DNA from: an uncultured Ferrovum sp.
GTDB taxonomy: Bacteria > Pseudomonadota > Gammaproteobacteria > Burkholderiales > Ferrovaceae
Length of the DNA stretch: 64,000 bases
Direction: 5' to 3'
Assembly: GCA_903893215.1 (NCBI GenBank)
Contig: CAITLJ010000032.1
Coordinates: forward strand, 1 to 64,000
Below the pieces are notes generated by a model that saw only the letters and a program-made list of their open reading frames with translations, was not told the origin of the DNA and searched no databases. Positions 1 through 2,499 of this stretch are shown piece after piece. A program made the position numbers and the translations under genes. How positions within the stretch are numbered: the first letter of the stretch is position 1; each line of letters begins with the position of its first letter.

Positions 1-144
1 AGCCTCTACCTCCGCAATCTACTCGCCTTCCGCAACAAACTTCGAGACATCGGAGAACCAGACGTGCCCGCAAAGGTAGCTCTCAAGAAGAACCAGATGG
101 TCAGTGAGCTCGAGAAACAGTTTAGGAAAATGATGGACGGCTGA
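1..144 (+). CDS. 3' end of an unidentified protist-type gene (partial)
   Basis: An open frame enters at base 1 and runs 47 codons to a TGA at 142-144. The product fragment is hydrophilic and Lys/Arg/Glu-rich, with a helix-like C-terminus that ends MMDG. I do not recognise the protein. It is treated as a real gene end for three reasons. The frame is open from the window edge, it stops at TGA like the neighbouring TPR gene, and it faces that gene tail-to-tail across only 69 bases of A+T-richer spacer. Such spacing suits a compact protist genome. Codon use (AAG, GAG, CTC) resembles the TPR gene. No TAG or TAA falls in this short frame, so it does not itself test the genetic code. Function unknown. 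Confidence 0.5.
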   Translation, partial: SLYLRNLLAFRNKLRDIGEPDVPAKVALKKNQMVSELEKQFRKMMDG

Positions 145-213
145 TTCTAATATTTGCCAAGGGGAGGGAGGGGTAGTAAAGTAATATGATGGTGGGGAGT
201 AAGTAATTTGATA
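145..213. other. Convergent intergenic spacer, A+T-richer
   Basis: These 69 bases lie between the TGA stops of two convergent protist-type genes. They mix G-rich runs with TAA/TAG-rich sequence, and their composition is visibly different from the coding sequence on both sides. No bacterial terminator hairpin is visible. The stretch presumably carries both 3' UTRs. Confidence 0.45.
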
Positions 214-1254
214 TCATTTGAGACGGTTGCAGCTCCAGTTGCTGGAGAGCTCGCTGACCTTGCGTTCGTTGCCGTCCTTGCGGTACTCCTCGAGGGAGAG
301 GCAGATGTACTTACGGTGCTCGGCCATCTTACCGATCTACAGGTAGACCTTGGCCACGCTCTCGAAGATGAAGCCCTTCGTCTTGCCGGCCTTCTCGTAC
401 AACGCGTGCATCCGCTCGTAGAACTCCAACGCTTCCTCCCACTTGCCCTCCAGCTCCTTCACGTAGGCGCACTGCCGTAGCAACTAAACAGCCTACCCGC
501 TTCTCCCCACCGCTAGCTTCAACGCCTTGTGCAGGTTCCCCAGTGCCTCCCCGCACTTCCGCTGCTCGATCTGGGCGAGACTGAGCTTGGAATGCGCATG
601 GAAGAGGAGGACCTTGTCGTGGGGGTTCTTGGCCTCGCGTTCGAGAATGGCCTGCTCGTAGTATCGCTCGCAAACGTCGAACATCTGGCAGTTGAAGTAG
701 ACATTGGCGATGTTGTAGAGCAGCGAGGAAGTGTCCGTCCCCACAGACTTTCCGTAGATCTTCAGCGCCTCGTTGTAGCAGTTCATCGACAGCTTCTCGT
801 AGCCGAGCTTGCCGTAGCAACACCCCAGGTTGTTGTAGAGTCGCCCCTTGATGCGCTGGTCACTGGCACTGCCATCGGCGGCGTACTCGCGGATGAGTTG
901 CTTGTAGATGGTCACTGCCCTGTCGTACTGCTCGAGTCGGAAGTAGCAGTTGCCCAAATTGTTGAGGATCTCCTTGTACTCCTCCTTGTACTACTCGCCA
1001 GCGTTTTCCAGCGGGAACTCCTCCCGCAGCTCCTCGAAGATGCCCGCCGCCTCGCTGAAATCGCCCATGCGGTAGAGCTTCACGCCCAGGTCCTTGGGAC
1101 TCTCTGGGAGTCCGTCGTCGTCGAAGGAGTCGTGGGAGTAGTCGCGGTGGGTGGTGGCGGACTTCTTGAGGTTGAGGAAGTGGGAGGTGCGGTAGAAGCG
1201 GTCGATGGTGGAGGACTTGGGGCGGGTGGTGAGGGCGTCGGCGTTTGCTGCCAC
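214..1254 (-). CDS. TPR-repeat protein in a TAG-reassigned genetic code, 5'-truncated
   Basis: Read on the minus strand, one frame runs about 346 codons to TGA at 216-214. It is interrupted only by four TAG triplets (993-991, 495-493, 486-484, 339-337). Reading TAG as glutamine gives a continuous protein with at least four tetratricopeptide-like helical pairs. Typical segments are LNNLGNCYFRLEQYDRAVTI, LYNNLGCCYGKLGYEKLSMN and LLYNIANVYFNCQMFDVCER. The sequence stays TPR-like on both sides of each TAG, and VYLQIGKM reads through the last one, so these are sense codons and not decay. TAG/TAA as Gln with TGA as sole stop is the nuclear code of many ciliates and some other protists. Only TAG is seen here, so the TAA meaning is untested. 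No intron interrupts the frame. The 5' end is lost at the junction near 1254 and no convincing ATG remains. TPR proteins usually scaffold protein-protein contacts; the partner is unknown. Confidence 0.75.
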
Positions 1255-1262
1255 GCATCGCT
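1245..1262. other. Junction between protist-type and bacterial sequence
   Basis: To the left, the minus-strand TPR frame is intact up to about 1254. To the right, the plus strand reads HRWRYALP, a recognisable piece of a bacterial FAD-dependent amine oxidase whose earlier part is missing. Both genes are cut here. The exact breakpoint cannot be fixed from sequence alone but lies within about ten bases of 1254. No transposase, target-site duplication or telomere-like repeat (such as CCCCAAAA) is visible. A chimeric contig is the simplest explanation. Confidence 0.7.
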
Positions 1263-1420
1263 GGCGTTACGCCTTGCCGCTTGCCATCAATGCGGGTGCT
1301 CTGTTTGACCGTACCCGCGGTCTTGGCGTGTGCGGTGACTGGCTGATCGGTGGTCGGGTGGAAGCTGCCTGGCAGTCAGGCACCGCGCTGGCGGCGCTGG
1401 TCGCCGCGAAGGGCGGGTGA
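1255..1420 (+). CDS. C-terminal fragment of a FAD-dependent amine oxidase-like oxidoreductase
   Basis: About 54 codons are left, ending in TGA at 1418-1420. The fragment contains HRWRYA followed by GLGVCGDWLIGGRVEAAWQSG. That matches the C-terminal FAD-binding segment of bacterial NAD(P)/FAD-dependent amine oxidases (the YobN-like group), where GD contacts the FAD ribityl/pyrophosphate and the following helix closes the active site. The N-terminal Rossmann fold and substrate domain are absent because the junction near 1254 removes them. In the intact genome this gene would run toward the convergent transaldolase gene. The family call is good; the substrate cannot be inferred. Confidence 0.7.
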
Positions 1421-1434
1421 TCAGGGACGGTCGG

Positions 1435-2499
1435 TCAGGCCACCACTTGCAGCAGCTTGTCAAACGCCTGATCGAATTGCGCCAACCCCTCGGTTTGCAA
1501 CTGCACGCCGACAGCTTCCAGGTCGATGCCCAGCGCCGGCAAGGCCTGCAGCGCCGAATGGGCCGCCGCCAGCCCCTGGGTGAGGGTGAGCGCAGCTTCG
1601 CCATGGTCAGCAAACGCAGCCAGCGTGGCGTCCGGAATGGTGTTGACGGTGCCGGGGCCGATCAGCTGTTCCACGTAAAGCACGTCGCGATAGGCCGGAT
1701 TTTTGGTGCCGGTGCTGGCCCACAGCAAGGCGGGCGGGTGTGCACCGGCTGCGCGCAGGGCGCCAAAGCCGTCACCGCCATAATGCGCCACCCAGGTGGC
1801 GTAGCAGGTGCGCGCCGACGCCAATGCAATGGTGCCACGCAGGGATGAGCCTTCGGGCAGGCGCGCGTCTACGGCAGTGTCGGTGCGGCTGACGAACACG
1901 CTGGCCACCGAGCGCACCTGCGCCAGCGGCAGGCCTCGCATCAGCCGTGTGGCCAGCCCACGCTGGCAGGCCACAAATACGGCGCGCGCCTGCTGCACGC
2001 TGAAGATCATGGTCACATTGACGTTGATGCCCGCGGCCAGCGTCTGCTCGATGGCAGGCAGGCAGGCAGGGGTGGCCGGAATCTTGATCATCACGTTGGG
2101 ACGATCGATTTCTGACCACAGGCGTTGTGCCGCCGCTACCGTGCCAGCGGTGTCCTGCGCCAGATGCGGGGACACTTCAAAGCTGACGTAGCCCATCTCA
2201 CCGCCGGTTTCGCCATACAGGGGTGCGAACAGGTCACAGGCCGCCTGGATGTCGGGGATGGCCAGCCGCTCGAAGCGCCGCTCGAGGGACGGCTCGGTGG
2301 CGCGCAGCGTGCCCAGGTCGGCCTGATAATCCGTGCCCTTGGACAAGGCGTTGAACAGGATCACCGGATTCGAGGTGACGCCCGCCAGTCCGTCGTCGGC
2401 AATCATGGCAGCCAACTGCCCGCTGGCCAGCAGGTTGCGCGAAATGTTGTCCAGCCAGACTTGCTGGCCGAGGGCACGGATTTGGCGGAGGCGGTTCAT
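1435..2499 (-). CDS. tal: Transaldolase
   Basis: The product is 354 aa. It transfers a dihydroxyacetone unit between sugar phosphates in the non-oxidative pentose phosphate pathway, in the cytoplasm. Visible marks are WLDNISR (15-21), the GVTSNP strand (40-45), and NVMIKIPAT (135-143) with Lys139 as the Schiff-base lysine. Further on come a WASTGTKNP segment and an YVEQLIGPGTVNT phosphate-site region. The length and the long N-terminal RQIRALGQQVWLDNISR helix suit the longer transaldolase subfamily and not the short TalC/fructose-6-phosphate aldolase type. It starts at ATG 2499, which begins MNRLRQIR. It is convergent with the truncated amine oxidase (14-base spacer) and divergent from the GST gene at 2629. 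No promoter is obvious. Confidence 0.95.
   Translation of the reverse strand: MNRLRQIRALGQQVWLDNISRNLLASGQLAAMIADDGLAGVTSNPVILFNALSKGTDYQADLGTLRATEPSLERRFERLAIPDIQAACDLFAPLYGETGGEMGYVSFEVSPHLAQDTAGTVAAAQRLWSEIDRPNVMIKIPATPACLPAIEQTLAAGINVNVTMIFSVQQARAVFVACQRGLATRLMRGLPLAQVRSVASVFVSRTDTAVDARLPEGSSLRGTIALASARTCYATWVAHYGGDGFGALRAAGAHPPALLWASTGTKNPAYRDVLYVEQLIGPGTVNTIPDATLAAFADHGEAALTLTQGLAAAHSALQALPALGIDLEAVGVQLQTEGLAQFDQAFDKLLQVVA

Follow-up and report, generated by a model that had tools for sequence, protein, structure and literature searches.

A foreign TPR-repeat gene in which TAG is probably a sense codon at the chimeric end of a Ferrovum contig

The left end of a contig assigned to an uncultured Ferrovum sp. 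is best explained, with a probability of approximately 0.83, as a protist-type fragment mis-joined to the bacterial contig, in which TAG is a sense codon and TGA a stop codon and which encodes a TPR scaffold protein. In this explanation, positions 1 to 1238 would derive from another organism, which is most likely a protist whose coding sequence is compact and rich in GC, and the fragment would have been joined to the contig end by misassembly or a chimeric read. The source organism would read TAG as sense and TGA as stop, and the frame interrupted by TAG codons would be what is left, after truncation at the 5′ end, of an ordinary TPR-repeat scaffold protein similar to the TPR domains of kinesin light chain (KLC) and LGN. 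The window, i.e., the whole stretch of 64,000 nucleotides that was analyzed, comprises positions 1 to 64000 of the contig (here, C32), and position 1 is the first base of the contig; the host genome comprises 3.27 Mb in 84 contigs. The features discussed below are listed in Table 1.

RESULTS

Translation of the minus strand from 1254 to 214 gave 346 codons followed by a terminal TGA at 216-214. Four in-frame TAGs at 993-991, 495-493, 486-484, and 339-337 correspond to codons 88, 254, 257, and 306, and they are the only interruptions because the frame contains neither TAA nor TGA. On these points, our translation agrees with the original prediction, which had placed four TAGs at the same positions in a 346-codon minus-strand frame that lacks TAA and ends at TGA. 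The extent of that frame has to be corrected at one end: codons 1 to 5 (VAANA; 1254-1240) are bacterial DNA read in antisense, and only the remainder belongs to the TPR gene, which was cut on its 5′ side by the join at ~1238 and has no start codon.

Table 1. Features at the left end of contig C32 and the evidence on which they are based
Feature	Positions	Strand	Evidence
Foreign segment, left end of C32	1-1238		Contig start; homology to C64 from 1236-1239; composition and codon usage unlike those of the host
Second foreign gene, 3′ end, 47 codons, SLYLRNLLAFRNKLRDIGEPDVPAKVALKKNQMVSELEKQFRKMMDG	1-144	+	Stop TGA 142-144; convergent with the TPR gene
A+T-rich spacer between convergent foreign genes, 69 bp, 39% GC	145-213		GC drop; coding signal lost
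5′-truncated TPR-repeat gene	214-1238	-	Translation, Pfam, codon model, AlphaFold; stop TGA 216-214
Chimeric join of foreign and bacterial DNA	1236-1239		Alignment with the end of C64
3′ end of host NAD/FAD-dependent oxidoreductase gene	1239-1420	+	Overlap with C64
Transaldolase gene of the host, the first gene in the window that is entirely bacterial	1435-2499	-	Pfam TAL_FSA 2.4e-77; homologues in relatives

The prediction that TAG is read as sense had been argued from the continuity of the frame and from the reasoning that random decay would not leave TAG as the only type of interruption. By themselves, both arguments turned out to be weak. We surveyed 1.79 Mb of the host genome for TAG-containing frames that are bounded by TAA or TGA and span at least 300 codons. 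Of the 659 such frames, 71 contained at least four TAGs, i.e., TAG-rich open frames are common, and we dropped the open frame alone as proof of recoding. Moreover, under the codon usage of the TPR gene, a random single-base change to a nonsense codon yields TAG in ~67% of cases, and the observation of four TAGs in four interruptions has a p of ~0.2. Therefore, we base the claim that TAG is a sense codon on the coding signal on both sides of the TAGs and not on the openness of the frame or the exclusive occurrence of TAG.

For the coding signal, we used a codon model trained solely on amino acids 89-253 and tested it on codons 6-87 (from segment 1-87), 258-305, and 307-346 with 5,000 shuffles. 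In all three flanking segments, the model was positive in the frame of the gene and negative in the five other frames, and 0 of 5,000 shuffles matched the observed score in any of the segments. The GC content at third codon positions (GC3) is 0.88 (88%) for the entire TPR gene and 0.91, 0.86, 0.92, and 0.88 for the individual segments between the TAGs. Downstream of the TGA at 216-214, the model turned negative, and the 69 bases past this codon have a GC content of 39%. Thus, the coding signal, like the predicted fold described below, runs through all four TAGs, which lie inside the coding sequence without ending it, while TGA acts as the terminator in that it ends both foreign genes and the signal is gone after it in the TPR gene.

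In Pfam searches, the whole frame matched TPR_12 (2.6e-19) and TPR_2 (3e-19), with repeats that start near residues 95, 138, 178, 218, 258, and 298 in a register of ~40 residues that is unbroken by the TAGs. When the pieces between the TAGs were searched separately, TPR profiles matched residues 89-253 (E = 1.8e-15), 258-305 (E = 0.0024), and, weakly, 1-87 (E = 0.035), while the piece 307-346 alone had no TPR profile match. Accordingly, the expectation that the translation is TPR-like on either side of each TAG was borne out for the first three pieces but not for the last one taken alone. AlphaFold2 run on the single sequence gave a best model with a mean pLDDT of 74, and the four other models were of lower confidence. 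The best model is a single TPR superhelix, i.e., a helical solenoid, with helices from residues 53 to 337, and all four TAG residues are located in predicted helices. Specifically, codon 88 is at the start of helix 87-106, codons 254 and 257 are in helix 252-268, and codon 306 is near the end of helix 294-307, which is followed by its partner helix 310-326, such that stopping at any of the four TAGs would cut a predicted helix. The fold matches were to TPR domains from LGN and KLC and to designed TPRs. The protein shares with TPR solenoids of the KLC and LGN type not only the fold but also the TPR_12 and TPR_2 repeats and the ~40-residue spacing; however, the identity to the KLC and LGN matches is just 16-20%, and as far as testable, the protein is not an orthologue of either. 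It combines multiple TPR matches above the curated cutoff with a predicted alpha solenoid, as is characteristic of TPR repeat proteins, and the frame encodes one continuous seven-repeat TPR protein.

Based on the codon bias, the repeat spacing, and the AlphaFold model, TAG is probably a sense codon and TGA a stop codon in the source organism of the fragment; this part of the original prediction is well supported for the fragment by the codon model and the predicted fold. Alternatively, the frame could represent a very young pseudogene, or an erroneous sequence, of a eukaryotic or bacterial gene with the standard code, in which the four TAGs have arisen. The excess of TAG among random nonsense changes (~67%; p ~0.2 for four of four) is compatible with such an origin, and errors could sit in low-coverage chimeric sequence; nevertheless, four nonsense changes would have accumulated with no frameshift, TAA, or TGA and with the codon bias and predicted fold undamaged. 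We consider this origin unlikely; in the explanation that we favor, the in-frame TAGs would reflect reassignment of the codon and not the recent decay of a gene.

The codon usage of the TPR gene is foreign to the host, with CTC and CTG used for Leu 20 and 11 times, respectively, versus a ratio of ~1:5 in clear host genes, and with TAC used for Tyr in 24 of 24 cases. We found no close relatives of the TPR protein in ~85,000 prokaryote genomes, viral contigs, phages, and plasmids, which yielded generic TPR proteins only. For the 47-codon end of the second foreign gene, there was no Pfam match and no meaningful PDB match. Phages that recode TAG (code 15 type) exist, and the compact two-gene layout of the tail would fit a TAG-recoded virus or phage in which TAG encodes Gln, but neither the protein nor the DNA had a match among phage records and viral contigs. 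To our knowledge, a convergent gene pair separated by an A+T-rich spacer and a TPR protein with a GC3 of 0.88 are also atypical of TAG-recoded phages, making a viral source very unlikely. The source that we favor would be eukaryotic, with the TPR gene belonging to the nuclear DNA of a protist.

Searching the host genome with the left end of the window, we observed that window positions 1236-1410 correspond to the 175 bases at the end of contig C64, with identity at 173 of them. The two mismatches are at 1238, i.e., at the join, and at 1300, and the sequences are identical from 1239 except for position 1300. C64 contains the complete oxidoreductase gene from 33633 to the contig end at 34693; the reading frame of this gene crosses the overlap without a shift and closes with the stop codon at window positions 1418-1420, and a homologue from another genome of the order has 39% identity over residues 3-350 and is uninterrupted at the join point. 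Upstream of the overlap, C64 carries host DNA where C32 has foreign sequence. Thus, it is C64 that continues the host gene, and positions 1-1238 are not contiguous with the host genome. Because the overlapping contig holds an intact oxidoreductase gene, positions 1-1238 are best explained as a foreign tail joined by misassembly. In the loci examined in relatives, the oxidoreductase and transaldolase genes were not adjacent; because the neighbor order gave no support, the link between C64 and C32 depends on the overlap and on the gene being in frame across it. Alternatively, protist DNA could truly have been inserted in, or transferred horizontally to, part of the bacterial population; the join interrupts a coding sequence, and the two mismatches to C64 are what a strain variant would also show. 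We consider this very unlikely, given that the foreign DNA is present only at the extreme contig end with no second junction seen, that the intact host version is in the same assembly, and that odd tails are found on other contig ends too.

Recoding in the bacterium itself is ruled out: the host's own genes are read normally, and positions 1-1238 are not host DNA. No protein kinase of the host genome had an internal stop.

Many contig ends in the assembly overlap other contigs by ~80-180 bases. In search of more pieces of the same protist, we screened contig ends (20 kb at the start and up to ~10 kb at the end) for composition and overlaps. The only foreign-looking sequences in this screen were short A+T-rich tails at positions 1-333 of C4 and 1-250 of C45, with no tie to the same source. 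These two tails reach past the overlap points with C46 and C49, and the C45 tail has short tandem repeats. Both tails resemble additional chimeric contig ends, and joins of this kind seem to recur in the assembly. At 1271-1356, C38 matches the beginning of C55, and positions 1-1270 of C38 form a 1.27-kb alternative left arm that is bacterial-looking (phosphate transporter-like) and possibly represents strain variation or another mis-join. Separately, two loci on C82 (5251-7200) and C50 (4501-9450) extend over several kb at a GC content of ~0.46-0.58, markedly below the rest of the genome, and are possibly mobile-element islands.

With respect to the residue inserted at TAG, we repeated the Pfam scan with TAG read as Q, E, L, K, Y, W, S, R, or X. 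With Q, E, K, S, or R in place of TAG, the scores differed by 1-2 bits on most TPR models, while L, Y, and W scored ~4 bits lower on TPR_7 and also lower on TPR_8, and L and W gained on TPR_12; Q, E, and K fit the TPR profiles marginally better than L, Y, and W. From prior knowledge, TAG most likely encodes Gln, with Glu and other residues also possible. Among the plain Gln codons of the gene, seven of eight are CAG, and four of four recoded codons are TAG, i.e., the third-base preferences match. TAA is absent from both foreign frames, and its rarity is expected at a GC3 of 0.88 under NCBI table 6 as well as under a UAG-only code. Because of this shared third-base preference, the missing TAA does not separate the two codes.

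DISCUSSION

In the ciliate nuclear code (NCBI table 6), TAA and TAG encode Gln, and TGA is the stop codon. The fragment shares with organisms using this code the in-frame TAGs, the termination of both genes at TGA, the absence of termination at TAA, and the compact convergent genes. It differs in lacking a TAA codon and in its GC3 of 0.88, which is far above the averages of 0.13-0.62 across 21 ciliate macronuclear genomes (PMC10384029). This speaks mildly against a typical ciliate, as a single gene can be extreme.

Codes in which UAG alone is reassigned have been described for Iotanema spirale (UAG = Gln) and the rhizarian exLh (UAG = Leu) and also occur outside ciliates (PMC5304391), as well as for phyllopharyngean ciliates, namely Hartmannula sinica and Trochilia petrani (UAG = Gln) and the TARA phyllopharyngeans (UAG = Leu) (PMC11687900). 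The fragment resembles all of these in that TAG is the only such codon present in frame; organisms with UAG-only codes mostly stop at UAA, whereas the two stops observed here are both TGA. In the peritrich code (table 30), TAA and TAG encode Glu. The peritrich code and that of Oligohymenophorea sp. PL0344, in which UAG encodes Glu and UAA encodes Lys (PMC10553269), share with the fragment TAG as sense and TGA as stop, and Glu fits the TPR profiles like Gln; however, the PL0344 genome has a GC content of 30.6% (PMC10553269), compared to a GC3 of 0.88 in the fragment. The label ciliate-type that the pattern had been given is fair as an analogy, but it does not extend to the GC3, which is beyond the ciliate range, nor are UAG-only codes confined to ciliates. 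A ciliate is a plausible source lineage.

Overall, positions 1-1238 are probably ordinary contamination carrying a nuclear code of an already known type. An undescribed GC-rich protist lineage from the habitat of the bacterium, which would lie outside the low- to mid-GC ciliates and in which TAG alone would be reassigned or would specify an unusual residue, is an unlikely source.

Our findings serve as a warning in that a genome rated 99.5% complete and 0.03% contaminated nevertheless bears a chimeric, probably eukaryotic contig end, which annotation would call broken bacterial open reading frames or bacterial recoding. They also suggest the presence, in the same sample, of a protist with TAG recoding and highly GC-rich genes, which could be traced in the source reads. 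The TAG recoding, if real, would be of a known type, and it is not a feature of the bacterium on contig C32.
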